From a virus: a stretch of DNA of 21,369 nt. Below the pieces are notes generated by a model that was not told where the DNA came from, did no database searches, and saw nothing but the letters and a program-made list of their open reading frames with translations. Each line of letters starts with the position of its first letter. Positions within the stretch are counted from its first letter, which is position 1. A program made the translations under genes and the position numbers. The DNA lies in the IMG/VR virus record IMGVR_UViG_3300028557_000220, positions 1 to 21,369 of that record; one strand, 5' to 3'. Of this stretch, positions 8,823 to 15,612 are shown one piece after another.

Positions 8823-9113
8823 ATGCAGGTTCGCTATATCGGCCCGTTTGATGCCGTAGAAATCGACGGCGTGCCCGGCAACGTCAAGCGTGGCGACACG
8901 TTCGACGTGCCCGCCGAGGTCGCCGGCCGAGCCGCTGACCCGCGGCTCATGGTCGCCCACGCAGAGCACGCCGCGGCCGTCGCCGCTATCGACCACGTGA
9001 ACGCGGCCCGGCTGCGTGACGAGATTCTGACGCTTGACGCCGGTTCCGGCTTGCTCGCCCAATCCGCAAATTTCGAGGCCGTCAAGGCCGCAAAGAAAGG
9101 TGACCCGTCGTGA
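8823..9113 (+). CDS. Small conserved tail-module protein (unknown)
   Basis: A 96-residue protein with a good ribosome-binding site (GGAAAGG, 8810-8816) before ATG 8823. The first 40 residues form a small beta unit (MQVRYIGPFDAVEIDGV, VKRGDTFDVP) of a type often seen in short phage proteins near the connector. The rest is helical and Ala-rich and ends with NFEAVKAAKKGDPS. The stop overlaps the tail tube GTG start (GTGA at 9110-9113). A structural or assembly role is inferred from position; I recognise no enzyme motif. Confidence 0.6.
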   Translation: MQVRYIGPFDAVEIDGVPGNVKRGDTFDVPAEVAGRAADPRLMVAHAEHAAAVAAIDHVNAARLRDEILTLDAGSGLLAQSANFEAVKAAKKGDPS

Positions 9114-10090
9114 CAACGATGAACACGCAGCTTGGCGTGGTGGACGAATCCACCTACGGCACGCCGGTAACCGTTACCCGGTTCTTTGAGTTCAACGGCG
9201 AGAGCGTGAAGCTCGAGCAGGGCCGCGTGGAAAGCGCCGGCTTGCGCTCCGGTACGCGCACGATGCGCGCCGACCGTTTCGAGCCGTACCGCATCGGCGC
9301 GGCTGGTGACGTGGTGATGGACGTGCCGACAAAGGGCTTTGGTTTCTTCTTGAAGCACATGCTTGGCACGGTCGCCACGGGCACCGTGGTTGACGGCAAC
9401 TACACGCACACGGGCACTGAGGGGTCGCTACTGGGCGACGTGTTCACCATGCAGATCAACCGGCCGTTTAACCCGGCCGGCACAAACCAGGCTTTCACCT
9501 ATCACGGTTGCAAGATCACCGGATGGGAGCTTGCCGCGGACACTGACGGTGTGCTCGTGGCGACGCTCTCGGTTGACGCTGAGGACGCGGACACGTCAAC
9601 GCCGCTCGCGACCGCGAGCTACCCGACCGATTACCGCGTGTTCTCGTTCACTGGCGCATCGCTGACCATCGGCGGCGCGGCCGTAGAGGTCAAGAATTTC
9701 AGCGTGTCATGCGATAACGCGCTGAACGTAGAGCGCCGCTATCTGCGCTCTACGTCGCTCAAGAAAGAGCCCGTGGAAGATGGCATGAGAACCTACGAAT
9801 GGTCATGCACCGCGGATTTCTCGGCGCTCACACAGTACGACCGTTTCCGTGATGCGGCTCGGGCTACGAACCTTGCGGCCATCGTGGCGACGTTCGAAGG
9901 CCCGGTAGCGCACGCCGGGACCACGCTCCCCCGGCTGACCGTCACCATTCCCGCGGCGCGGTTCGATGCCGTGGATTTCAACATCAGTGGGCCCGAGGCG
10001 CTCATGCAGGAAATGAGCGGCATCGCCACGTTCGACGGCACCAACAGCCCGGTAACGCTCGCATACCGGACCACTGACGCGCTCCCCTGA
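9110..10090 (+). CDS. Major tail tube protein
   Basis: A 326-residue protein that polymerises into the tail tube. It begins TQLGVVDESTYGTPVTVTRF and has FEFNGESVKL, TKGFGFFLKHMLG, ITGWELAAD and late AVDFNISGPEALMQ; this organisation matches phage tail tube family 2 proteins, which open with 'E-TYGTPVTVTRFFE' and build a beta-sandwich. The GTG at 9110 overlaps the previous stop and lies 9 nt after AAGAAAGG (9093-9100); an in-frame ATG at 9119 would only remove three residues. The genes beside it (tail terminator, gp10-like, chaperone, tape measure) support the call. Confidence 0.85.
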   Translation: MTTMNTQLGVVDESTYGTPVTVTRFFEFNGESVKLEQGRVESAGLRSGTRTMRADRFEPYRIGAAGDVVMDVPTKGFGFFLKHMLGTVATGTVVDGNYTHTGTEGSLLGDVFTMQINRPFNPAGTNQAFTYHGCKITGWELAADTDGVLVATLSVDAEDADTSTPLATASYPTDYRVFSFTGASLTIGGAAVEVKNFSVSCDNALNVERRYLRSTSLKKEPVEDGMRTYEWSCTADFSALTQYDRFRDAARATNLAAIVATFEGPVAHAGTTLPRLTVTIPAARFDAVDFNISGPEALMQEMSGIATFDGTNSPVTLAYRTTDALP

Positions 10091-10091
10091 C

Positions 10092-10562
10092 ATGGCACGG
10101 CTTGACGCCGGCACGGTCAAGGTTGCCGGGCTGAGCGAGCTACGCAAAGAGCTAAAGCGGCTCGATGAAGCAACCCTAATTGACGAACTCAAAGACGCCA
10201 ATTACGAGGTTGCCGAACTGGTGCGCAAAGAGGCCGTAGGGCGCGCCAGCACGAAAATGGAACAGCGCGCCGCGGATTCGCTCAAGAGCGCACGTCAAGC
10301 GGCGCGGGCGCAGCTATCCGGCGGTGGCGCAAAGGTTCCGTATTTCGGCGGCGCAGAATTCGGCGCGATGCGCAACCAAACGCGGACCGGGCCGAGCGGC
10401 CGCACCTATCAGGGATACAACCAATTTCAGGAATGGCGCGGCAACGGTTCCGATGCCGGCTATTTCCTCTATCCCGCCATTCGCGACCTAAGCGAGCCCA
10501 TCGTCAATATCTATGGCGACTACCTCGAGCAGATCACGAAGAAAGCATTTCCGGACGAGTAG
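10092..10562 (+). CDS. HK97 gp10-like tail-module protein
   Basis: A 156-residue protein that starts one base after the tail tube stop. The N-terminal part is helical (VAGLSELRKELKRLDEATL, VAELVRKEAVGRASTKMEQRA). The second half holds the typical VPYFGGAEFG, NQFQEWRGNGSDAGYFLYPAIRD and a final helix ending TKKAFPDE. This is the pattern of a widespread actinophage protein related to HK97 gp10 and other neck/tail-completion proteins. In lambdoid phages such proteins are coded before the tail tube; here it lies after it. No ribosome-binding site is clear, so coupling to the upstream gene is likely. Confidence 0.65.
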   Translation: MARLDAGTVKVAGLSELRKELKRLDEATLIDELKDANYEVAELVRKEAVGRASTKMEQRAADSLKSARQAARAQLSGGGAKVPYFGGAEFGAMRNQTRTGPSGRTYQGYNQFQEWRGNGSDAGYFLYPAIRDLSEPIVNIYGDYLEQITKKAFPDE

Positions 10563-10574
10563 GGAGCTAGGGAC

Positions 10575-10892
10575 ATGGCAAGTAGGGGACGAGAGCGCAG
10601 CGGCGTAACGCCGGCCGATCTGCCGGTAGCGGTCATCCGCGTGGCCGGGCAAGAGGTCACCATTGACCAACGAACGATGACGATGCGCGAACGGCAAGCG
10701 ATGCGGGCCGCTCTGGCGACCGTGGCCGAGCCCGACGACCTAGATGCGCTCTGCGCGACCATTTGGGTAGTCATGCGCCGCGATGACCCGTCGCTCACAT
10801 TCGAGAGCGTTTGTGATTCCATCACGCTTGCGGACCTTGCCGACGCCACGACCGTAGAGCCCGGCGACCGCGACCAATCCGACCCAAACTGA
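10575..10892 (+). CDS. Tail assembly chaperone, short (G-like) product
   Basis: A 105-residue protein, by position and size the equivalent of lambda gpG. It starts at ATG 10575 after AGGGAG (10561-10566) and TAGGGAC. It has an early beta segment (PVAVIRVAGQEVTIDQRTMT), a helical centre (MRERQAMRAALATVA, LDALCATIWVVMRRDDP), and an acidic end (EPGDRDQSDPN). These chaperones coat the tape measure and bring tail tube subunits. The last two sense codons (CCA AAC) are part of the slippery heptamer, and the TGA at 10890 follows at once, so a fraction of ribosomes should slip to make the longer product. Confidence 0.8.
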   Translation: MASRGRERSGVTPADLPVAVIRVAGQEVTIDQRTMTMRERQAMRAALATVAEPDDLDALCATIWVVMRRDDPSLTFESVCDSITLADLADATTVEPGDRDQSDPN

Positions 10893-10924
10893 TTCGGCGG
10901 GCACTGCTCAAACAGTGGCCCGCC
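10883..10924 (+). promoter_or_regulatory. Programmed -1 frameshift signal
   Basis: CCCAAAC at 10883-10889 fits the X-XXY-YYZ slippery rule in the correct phase (C CCA AAC in the chaperone frame). The zero-frame stop TGA is at 10890-10892. After a 6-nt spacer, 10896-10906 pairs with 10913-10924 to give an 11-bp stem with one bulged G and a CTCAAA loop. Slippery site, spacer length and hairpin all fit known -1 frameshift signals, and the -1 frame stays open to 11065. Slippage itself is inferred. Confidence 0.85.
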
Positions 10925-11065
10925 ATCACCCGGTTCTACGGGCTTTTCCCGTGGGATATCGACCGGCTCACGGTTGACGAGCTAGCCGAATACACGCGGC
11001 AAATGGCCGAGTACCAACGTGAAATGAAGCGGCAAGAATCACGCGCCAAGCGCTGGAGAGGCTAG
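10889..11065 (+). CDS. Tail assembly chaperone, frameshift (GT-like) extension
   Basis: A -1 frame extension with no useful start of its own, read after slippage at CCCAAAC. It adds about 58 residues to the 105 of the short form, giving a product of about 163 residues that spans 10575-11065. The extension has a helix (LIRRALLKQWPAITRFYG), then LFPWDIDRLTVDELAEYTRQM and a basic C-terminal helix ending RAKRWRG. 'Short helix, FYG-FPWDID-LT-DEL' is typical of the second chaperone frame in actinophages and matches the T part of lambda gpGT, which contacts tail tube subunits. It ends 5 nt before the tape measure gene. Confidence 0.82.
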   Translation: MIRRALLKQWPAITRFYGLFPWDIDRLTVDELAEYTRQMAEYQREMKRQESRAKRWRG

Positions 11066-11070
11066 GGACG

Positions 11071-12846
11071 ATGGCCGGCGTTCGTAAGCTCTCTATCGAA
11101 ATCTTGGGCGACGCTAAGGGCGTTTCTAAAGCGTTTGGCGACGCCGAAAGGGACGCTGACGGTTTCGGCGCAAAGATGGGCAGCGTTGGCAAAGCGGCCG
11201 GCGTTGCGTTTCTCGGCATCGGCGCGGCCGCGGTCGGCGCGGGCGTGGTGCTCTCCGATTGGGCTAGCGATGCCGCGGCAGATTCGGCCGAGCAATCGCT
11301 CATGGAAAAGCAATTGAAGCTCGCCGGCGGCACGCAGGCCGTTATAGACGGCTTCAACGCGCAGATTGACGCCGGCATGAAACTCAAGGGCTTTACCGAT
11401 ACGGAACTGCGCTCGAGCTACGCGCAAGCGTTCTCACAGTCAAAGGACATGGCGACGGCGAACGCTGACGTTGCGCTCGCTATGGACATTGCGCGCAAGG
11501 CCGGCGTTCCTCTCGAGAGGGCCCTAGACGCCGTGACGAAAGCGCACAACGGGCAGACCACGGCGCTCGGCAAGATGCTCCCCGAGTACGGCGGGCTCAT
11601 CAAAGAGGCCGGCTCGAGCGCCGAGGCGCTTGACCTCGTGCGCAACGCGACCGCGGGAATGTCCGACGAGTTTGCCAACACGACGCAAGGCCGTATGGAG
11701 CGCGCAAAGAATCAGTTTGGGGAGCTTAAGGAAACGGTCGGCGCGGCGTTCATCCCCGTGATGGAATCGCTGATTCCGGTTATCACGAACGTAATGACAT
11801 GGATTGGCGAAAAGCTCCCCGGCGCTATGGCCGCGGTCAAGGCGTGGGTTGATACGAATTGGCCCGCCATTCGCGATGCCATCATGGTTGCCGTTGACGC
11901 CGTGCGCGAGGGCATCGCCGGTTTCGTCACGTTCGTTCAAGAAAAGTGGGCGGCGTGGGGCGATGAAATCATGGCCGTGGTTGACCGCGTGTGGTCCGCC
12001 ATTCAGGCCACGGTAGAGAACGTCATCAACGCCGTTCGTGGCATCATTGAGACTGTCGTCAACCTCATTCACGGCGATTGGTCGGGCGCGTGGGACGGCA
12101 TCAAGGCGACGCTTTCGGCCGTTTGGGAGCAGATCAAGAACGTGGTTTCTCTCGCGCTTGACGGGCTAAAGGCGCTCATCAAGGGCGCGTGGGACGGCAT
12201 CAAGTCTGTTGCGTCATCCGTATGGGACGGCATCAAGTCAACCATTTCGGGCGCGTGGGACGGCATCAAGTCGGCCGTCAGCGGCGCAGTAGACGCCGTG
12301 GTGGAATACGTCAAGGGCATTCCCGGCAAGCTCATCCGGCTTGTCTCGTCGTTCGCCACGGCCGGCGGCAACATTGCTAGCGCCATCGTCGGCGGTATCA
12401 CTGACGGCTTCACGTCGCTACTGAGCAAGGCGACCGACGCCGCTAAGGGTTTCGCCAACGCCATCATTCGGTTTATCAACGAAAAGGTCATCGGCAAGAT
12501 AAACGATTTGCTCGAATTCGAGATTTCGTTTTTTGGCAAGACTGTCAGAATTGACCCGCCAGACTTGCCGAGCATCCCGACGTTTCACACGGGCGGCGTG
12601 GTCGGCGGTATGTCGTTCGGCGGCATGGCTCCCGATGACGTTGCCGCGGTGCTGCGCAAGGGTGAAACCGTGCTGACGCCGGCGCAGCTTGCCGCGGTCG
12701 GCGCGGGTGGCTCTGGCGGCTCGAGCCGTACCTACGCGATCACGGTCAACGTCCCGCCGACCGCGAACCTTGCCGACGTGGGCCGGCAGACCGTGCTAGC
12801 CGTGCAGGAATTCGAGCGCAGCAACGGCGCGGGCTGGCGCAACTAA
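11071..12846 (+). CDS. Tail tape measure protein
   Basis: A 591-residue protein that sets tail length and is ejected with the DNA. It begins with a short charged part, then a hydrophobic segment (about 42-61, AAGVAFLGIGAAAVGAGVVL). A helical N-terminal domain follows (TTALGKMLPEYGGLIKEAGS). Residues about 340-405 hold six 11-residue repeats around [GS]xWDGIKS. The C terminus has FHTGGVVGG and LRKGETVLTPAQ, a common tape-measure ending. The start follows GGAGAGG (11055-11061) by 9 nt. At the general rule of about 0.15 nm per residue, 591 residues suggest a tail near 90 nm; this is an estimate. No peptidase domain is recognised. Confidence 0.92.
   Translation: MAGVRKLSIEILGDAKGVSKAFGDAERDADGFGAKMGSVGKAAGVAFLGIGAAAVGAGVVLSDWASDAAADSAEQSLMEKQLKLAGGTQAVIDGFNAQIDAGMKLKGFTDTELRSSYAQAFSQSKDMATANADVALAMDIARKAGVPLERALDAVTKAHNGQTTALGKMLPEYGGLIKEAGSSAEALDLVRNATAGMSDEFANTTQGRMERAKNQFGELKETVGAAFIPVMESLIPVITNVMTWIGEKLPGAMAAVKAWVDTNWPAIRDAIMVAVDAVREGIAGFVTFVQEKWAAWGDEIMAVVDRVWSAIQATVENVINAVRGIIETVVNLIHGDWSGAWDGIKATLSAVWEQIKNVVSLALDGLKALIKGAWDGIKSVASSVWDGIKSTISGAWDGIKSAVSGAVDAVVEYVKGIPGKLIRLVSSFATAGGNIASAIVGGITDGFTSLLSKATDAAKGFANAIIRFINEKVIGKINDLLEFEISFFGKTVRIDPPDLPSIPTFHTGGVVGGMSFGGMAPDDVAAVLRKGETVLTPAQLAAVGAGGSGGSSRTYAITVNVPPTANLADVGRQTVLAVQEFERSNGAGWRN
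12088..12285 (+). repeat. Six 33-bp repeats in the tape measure gene
   Basis: The core TGGGACGGCATCAAG is exact at 12091, 12190, 12223 and 12256, and recognisable copies lie in phase at 12124 (TGGGAGCAGATCAAG) and 12157 (CTTGACGGGCTAAAG). Every interval is a multiple of 33 bp. The unit encodes 11 residues (a hendecad), which gives a regular helical rod. The last three copies are nearly identical at the DNA level, so unit loss or gain by slippage or recombination could change tail length. Confidence 0.88.
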
Positions 12847-14558: not shown

Positions 14559-15307
14559 TGACGTTCACGCACGCTCGGGCCACGTGGCTTGCTCCCGCGC
14601 CGCCCATCACCGGCCCGGCGTTGCTGTGGCACACGGTCGATACCGTCGTCATTCACTACACGGCGGCGTACAACCTCATTGACGGCGACCCCGGCGAACA
14701 TGCCGACCGGCTCGATGACTACCTACGCGCGATGCAATCGGCCTCCGTGCGCGAGCGTGGCTATTCGGTCGTCTACAACGCCGCGATTGATTGGCTCGGC
14801 GGCTCATGGGAGCTACGCGGGCTTGATATTCAGTGCGCCGCCAATAAGGGCCACAACGGGCACACGTGGGCCGTGCTGGTGCTGGTGGACGGCAACGACG
14901 GCGCTACGGCGCACGCAGCGGCCGAGATTCGCCGGCTCATCGCCGCGGCCGAACGGCTCGCCGGGCGAAAGCTCAAGATCACCGGGCACGGGCAGTTGCC
15001 CGGCGCGGCGACCGCGTGCCCCGGCATCGGGCTACGCGCGCAGATCACGGCCGGCGTGTTCACGCCGGGCGCACAACCACAACCGGGAGACGATGACATG
15101 ACGGGCACACTCTGGCGACACCCGGCCTATTGGAATGTGTTTCTCATCGGCTCCGGCCCGGCCATCAACGTCAGCCCGGCCGTGTACCAGTCGCTCAAGG
15201 CGCGTGGCGTGCCCGAGATTGTCGAGGCGCATGACCAAATGCTCAAAACGTGCATGGCTCAAGCATCGCTGACGTTTGACGGCGGCGACATGGTGCCATC
15301 GGCATGA
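14558..15307 (+). CDS. Endolysin, N-acetylmuramoyl-L-alanine amidase
   Basis: A 249-residue peptidoglycan hydrolase of the zinc amidase type (Amidase_2/PGRP fold), which cuts the bond between muramic acid and the stem peptide. Likely zinc ligands are His33 in VVIHYTAA, His144 in ITGHGQLPG and Cys154 in ACPG; the middle has YSVVYNAAIDW and the WELRGLDIQCAANKGHNGHT region. Residues about 170-182 are a Pro/Gly/Asp linker, and the last 65 residues (LWRHPAYWNVFLIGSG, SPAVYQSLKARGVPEIVEAH) form a separate domain that may bind the cell wall. GTG 14558 overlaps the previous stop. No signal peptide is seen, so a holin should be needed. It overlaps the next gene by ATGA. Confidence 0.87.
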   Translation: MTFTHARATWLAPAPPITGPALLWHTVDTVVIHYTAAYNLIDGDPGEHADRLDDYLRAMQSASVRERGYSVVYNAAIDWLGGSWELRGLDIQCAANKGHNGHTWAVLVLVDGNDGATAHAAAEIRRLIAAAERLAGRKLKITGHGQLPGAATACPGIGLRAQITAGVFTPGAQPQPGDDDMTGTLWRHPAYWNVFLIGSGPAINVSPAVYQSLKARGVPEIVEAHDQMLKTCMAQASLTFDGGDMVPSA

Positions 15308-15612
15308 GCGCCGTGTTCACGCAAGCTGACGCAACCGTTATCGGCTCGCTGTTCGCGCTGGTCGCCACGCTTACCGGGCTCTACGTGCAGAACCGCCGAG
15401 CGCACCAGCAGAACCACGCCGAACACGCGGCGACGTTTCATCTTGTGCGCAAGGTCGCCGCGGACGTGAAAGAGGTTCGCGCCGACCAGCGCAAACAGGG
15501 TTCCGAACTGCGCAGTCACGGCGACCGCTTGCGCCGGCTCGAGCTTGACGCCGAGCCCGTCAAGCCGTCGCCCATCAAGGCCGCGCCCAAACCCCGAAAG
15601 AGGTCCGCATGA
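15304..15612 (+). CDS. Membrane protein with coiled coil, holin-like
   Basis: A 102-residue protein in the lysis cassette, coupled to the endolysin (ATGA at 15304-15307). It has one hydrophobic segment (about 10-28, ATVIGSLFALVATLTGLYV), then a long charged helix (HLVRKVAADVKEVRADQRKQ, GSELRSHGDRLRRLELD) and a Pro/Lys-rich cytoplasm-type tail. One membrane segment followed by a coiled coil is a known type of actinophage holin or holin partner. It might alternatively be a spanin-like or regulatory lysis protein; the sequence does not decide. It overlaps the next gene by 4 nt. Confidence 0.6.
   Translation: MSAVFTQADATVIGSLFALVATLTGLYVQNRRAHQQNHAEHAATFHLVRKVAADVKEVRADQRKQGSELRSHGDRLRRLELDAEPVKPSPIKAAPKPRKRSA

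Follow-up and report, generated by a model that had tools for sequence, protein, structure and literature searches.

A siphovirus-type phage with a predicted −1 ribosomal frameshift signal in its lambda G/GT-type tail assembly chaperone gene

In the lambda G/GT tail assembly chaperone mechanism (Levin 1993; Xu 2004, as reviewed in PMC5009743), the two products stand at about 30:1; the tape measure protein is bound by gpG and the tail tube protein by the T part (PMC5009743). Frameshifting reached 6% and 7% in two HK97-like chaperone frameshift genes covered by an experimental survey (PMC3711429). In phiC31, gp42 is annotated with “ribosomal slippage” over gp41, and other phiC31-like Streptomyces phages share this gene layout, Vash with a joined chaperone CDS. 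As to the slippery sites themselves, PRFect lists the heptamer CCCGGAA and proposes G:U re-pairing for it (PMC10885494). This class of frameshift is well known, and the site described here is an ordinary, sound further example of it: almost certainly, a siphovirus-type phage here carries a standard −1 programmed frameshift signal in a tail assembly chaperone gene of the G/GT type, with the slippage itself predicted from the sequence. An annotation proceeding frame by frame would miss the putative chaperone product recovered here.

The window, that is, the whole stretch of 21,369 nucleotides that was analysed, carries a major capsid gene upstream of the following features, in which the chaperone reading frames occupy the G/GT-type placement between the major tail protein gene and the tape measure gene:

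9110–10090, plus strand: major tail (tube) protein gene (Pfam Phage_tube_2, E 2.5e-29; homologue of phiC31 gp39)
10092–10562, plus strand: small gene placed like gp40 of phiC31, judged from gene order and a weak tail-completion match (phrog_5, E 2.6e-5)
10575–10892, plus strand: predicted G-like tail assembly chaperone in the zero frame, 105 aa from ATG to TGA, flanked by the tail cluster and the tape measure gene like its phiC31 counterpart and kept in 11 relatives
10883–10889, plus strand: slippery heptamer C CCA AAC (in the −1 frame CCC AAA C); no other in-phase site in the scanned overlap lets both tRNAs re-pair
10889–11065, plus strand: −1-frame T-like part of a predicted 163-aa GT-like fusion, 58 aa after the shift, with a profile match to the C-terminal part of phiC31 gp42
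10890–10892, plus strand: zero-frame stop TGA, the codon adjoining the heptamer
10890–10895, plus strand: spacer TGATTC, 6 nt from heptamer to hairpin
10896–10924, plus strand: GC-rich hairpin whose 11-bp stem has a single bulged G; loop CTCAAA
11071–12846, plus strand: next gene downstream, encoding the tape measure protein (best match to PHROG tape measure families at E 1.5e-40)

A 33-bp imperfect tandem repeat lies inside the tape measure gene, at 12184–12287.

The zero-frame ORF ends in ...GAC CCA AAC TGA, and the −1 frame, open from 10817, runs to a stop at 11063–11065; a slip on the heptamer would join the two into a fusion of 163 aa with the junction ...SDPNLIRR.... The short (105-aa) and the −1-extended (163-aa) forms are both present in the sequence, as reading frames rather than as products. 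The preliminary description had proposed CCCAAAC in the phase C CCA AAC with TGA as the next codon, a 6-nt spacer, an 11-bp stem with one bulge and a −1 frame open to 11065 encoding a 163-residue fusion; the heptamer and stop are found base for base at 10883–10892, the coordinates of the open frame are exact, and the stem, in which GGCGGGCACTG (10896–10906) pairs with CAGTGGCCCGCC (10913–10924), folds strongly. The segment 10890–10930 has a folding energy of −21.8 kcal/mol, whereas its shuffled versions average −10.1 (z = −5.0; none of 200 shuffles as good); of all 36-nt segments in the window, only 0.36% reach the stability of the segment that begins at 10890. The 11-bp hairpin after 6 nt stands within the distance of about 5–9 nt from the heptamer that is expected of a stimulatory structure. 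Rfam gave no match.

The stretch 10883–10889 has the X XXY YYZ form of −1 frameshift sites, in phase and within the two-frame overlap, and among the 24 in-phase sites of that overlap it is the only canonical XXXYYYZ. Overlaps simulated with this phage’s codon usage contain an in-phase XXXYYYZ with Y = A or T in 0.8% of cases, and their very last site is any XXXYYYZ in 0.4%. A second CCCAAAC, at window position 15586, is out of the slippery phase of the ORF 15304–15612. The preliminary description suggested that CCC-AAAC is a less common slippery choice in phages than A- or G-rich sites; no description of CCCAAAC in phages was found in the literature, an absence that means little, since most subscription papers, Xu 2004 included, were beyond reach.

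Neither of the two protein halves reaches a significant family in PHROG or Pfam, PDB searches gave no significant match, and a DNA-level search of a phage collection gave none; a protein search with the 58-aa part of one relative (L052) was likewise without a match. By profile comparison, the T part aligns with phiC31 gp42 and the phiC31 group (probability 93.7%, E 2e-7), which agrees with the earlier suggestion that the second frame encodes the second chaperone part, and the G-like part aligns weakly with the same group. The AlphaFold model of the G part is of moderate quality (pLDDT 77); fold searches with it in the PDB and BFVD gave no significant match, and the weak BFVD matches include several tail assembly chaperones as well as phiC31 gp42. 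The chaperone label is a sequence-based prediction that rests on gene position and on the phiC31 match of the T part.

The reading as −1 frameshifting is preferred because gene order, a conserved re-pairable heptamer, a fixed spacer, a hairpin, the lack of a −1-frame start codon and the homology to phiC31 gp42 all agree. Most ribosomes would terminate at the TGA after C CCA AAC and so release a G-like chaperone of 105 aa. In a minority, the hairpin at the mRNA entrance would hold the ribosome while tRNA-Pro occupies CCA and tRNA-Asn occupies AAC; these ribosomes would slip one base back onto CCC AAA and continue with CTG ATT CGG... to give the 163-aa GT-like fusion. By analogy with lambda, the G protein would bind the tape measure protein and the T part would recruit the tail tube protein. 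This slip of two tRNAs from CCA AAC to CCC AAA, together with the hairpin, accounts for all the data; the occurrence of the slip, its efficiency and the protein functions are inferred.

The same arrangement is found in 11 further distinct sites with a T-like part from metagenomic viral contigs, making 12 sites with the window (L059 duplicates L060 at the chaperone site and is not counted separately). In all 11 relatives the T-like part, which shares 41–78% identity with that of the window, is encoded in the −1 frame relative to the ORF before it, and the region from heptamer through hairpin aligns without gaps; a strong hairpin is present in 11 of the 12 sites, the window included. The heptamer itself is CCCAAAC in two sites (the window and L054), CCCTTCT in two (L052, L063), CCCCCCG in one (L053) and CCCGGAA in seven (L055, L056, L057, L058, L060, L061, L062). 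The P site is C CCN throughout and becomes CCC after the slip, while the A-site codons AAC, TCT, CCG and GAA become AAA, TTC, CCC and GGA, with pairing kept if wobble and G-U pairs are allowed. Re-pairing of both tRNAs is possible at 12/12 sites as against 0.6% of in-frame sites in the window’s other genes, a comparison that is indicative rather than blind, the re-pairing rules being the analysis’s own and written after the sites had been seen. The zero-frame stop directly follows the heptamer in three of the 12 sites and comes one codon later in nine, while the distance from heptamer to hairpin is 6 nt throughout, which argues for selection on this distance rather than on the stop; L054 lacks the outermost aligned pair, so that its stem proper begins slightly differently. 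In the comparison of heptamer and stem among related phages that the preliminary description had suggested, the C CCN P site, a re-pairable A site and the 6-nt spacing to the hairpin prove to be conserved, whereas the precise heptamer varies. A search for relatives with a separate start for the second frame and neither heptamer nor stem found none among the 12 sites.

Three further observations bear on the relatives. At the corresponding position a more distant relative (L044) carries C CCA AAA, without an unusual hairpin. In L056 and L039 the gene order differs, with a gp40-like gene after the chaperone pair, and in the T frame a start-stop overlap, ATGA, accompanies CCCGGAA. On a contig from an actinomycete MAG that encodes a related T part, the overlap carries AAACCCT (A AAC CCT; L064:2474–2480) 49 nt ahead of the stop.

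It is about an even chance that, within one homologous chaperone family, the heptamer has been switched among CCCAAAC, CCCTTCT, CCCCCCG and CCCGGAA while the C CCN P site, the spacer and the hairpin were kept; CCCTTCT would then slip by way of a middle-position G-U pair of tRNA-Ser on UUC. No description of CCCTTCT as a slippery site was found in the literature, and as most subscription papers were beyond reach this absence, too, means little. The relatives constitute a small natural experiment on which A-site codons interchange at a conserved frameshift site, and this set of codons bears on the prediction of non-canonical heptamers.

The second part might instead be translated from a start codon of its own, by termination and reinitiation at the overlapping stop. 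A T-frame ATG, GTG or TTG does overlap the stop in five of the 12 sites (TTGA in L052; ATGA in L056; GTGA in L058, L060 and L063), but it is absent from the junction in the other seven, which argues against reinitiation as the shared mechanism. The window is one of these: its codon at the junction is CTG, and a scan of the −1 frame for ATG, GTG and TTG finds none before 11003, already within the conserved domain. Reinitiation, moreover, would need no conservation of the heptamer or of its spacing to the hairpin, and it is a very unlikely explanation.

As the hairpin lies inside a conserved protein motif, RRALL..WPA, it could, with the heptamer, be a mere by-product of coding for that motif in a GC-rich phage, with no role in frameshifting. 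Sites were compared with synonymous recodings, in which the same residues are kept and codons are resampled with the window’s codon usage (1000 recodings for the window). The hairpin is more stable than the recodings in 11 of the 12 sites (z −1.7 to −4.3), and an equally stable one arises in 2.3% of recodings for the window and in 0% for L052, L054 and L061. The sole exception is L053, which keeps the motif with a hairpin no better than its recodings (z 0.1). Covariation points the same way, with a score of 0.176 against a shuffled mean of 0.103 (one of 500 shuffles as high), above all slid controls, and with the alignment pair 24–31 seen as GC, CG, UA, GU and UG; the covariation term of RNAalifold is near zero and only two pairs change on both sides, so covariation by itself is modest support. 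The heptamer, for its part, lies upstream of the motif and changes in type without loss of re-pairing. Heptamer re-pairing, alignment, recoding and covariation thus indicate a signal conserved across the relatives beyond protein coding, and a coding by-product is extremely improbable. Equally improbable is a single gene whose two frames reflect pseudogene decay or an indel from sequencing or assembly: a single-base change would indeed join both frames, but the same frame relation recurs at the same place in 12 contigs whose proteins are divergent. Transcriptional slippage is rejected because there is no long homopolymer run.

By comparison with lambda G/GT, the predicted −1 frameshift signal of the window shares a slip late in the first chaperone gene, the flanking tail tube and tape measure genes, and a short and a C-terminally extended product, here as reading frames only; it differs in lacking a detectable sequence family match and in having the heptamer CCCAAAC with a clear hairpin 6 nt downstream. 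The lambda site is a different heptamer. With phiC31 the window shares the order of major tail protein gene, small gene, chaperone pair (gp41/gp42 in phiC31) and tape measure gene, with the T part in the −1 frame, and with the phiC31 group it shares a homologous major tail protein (28–31% identity) and a homologous T part. That group, in contrast, has no A/T-type XXXYYYZ; a re-pairable GGACCCT is conserved there 22 nt before the stop, with no unusual hairpin close behind. In the phiC31-like phages L049, L050 and L065–L069, GGACCCTACC is kept in 7/7 chaperone overlaps (e.g. L049:2164–2173), and GGACCCT (G GAC CCT to GGA CCC), a non-canonical heptamer, passes the re-pairing rule in both members scored. 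Finally, the commonest heptamer of the relatives is identical to the “threetwotwo” motif CCCGGAA of PRFect (PMC10885494), whereas the window has the canonical CCCAAAC.
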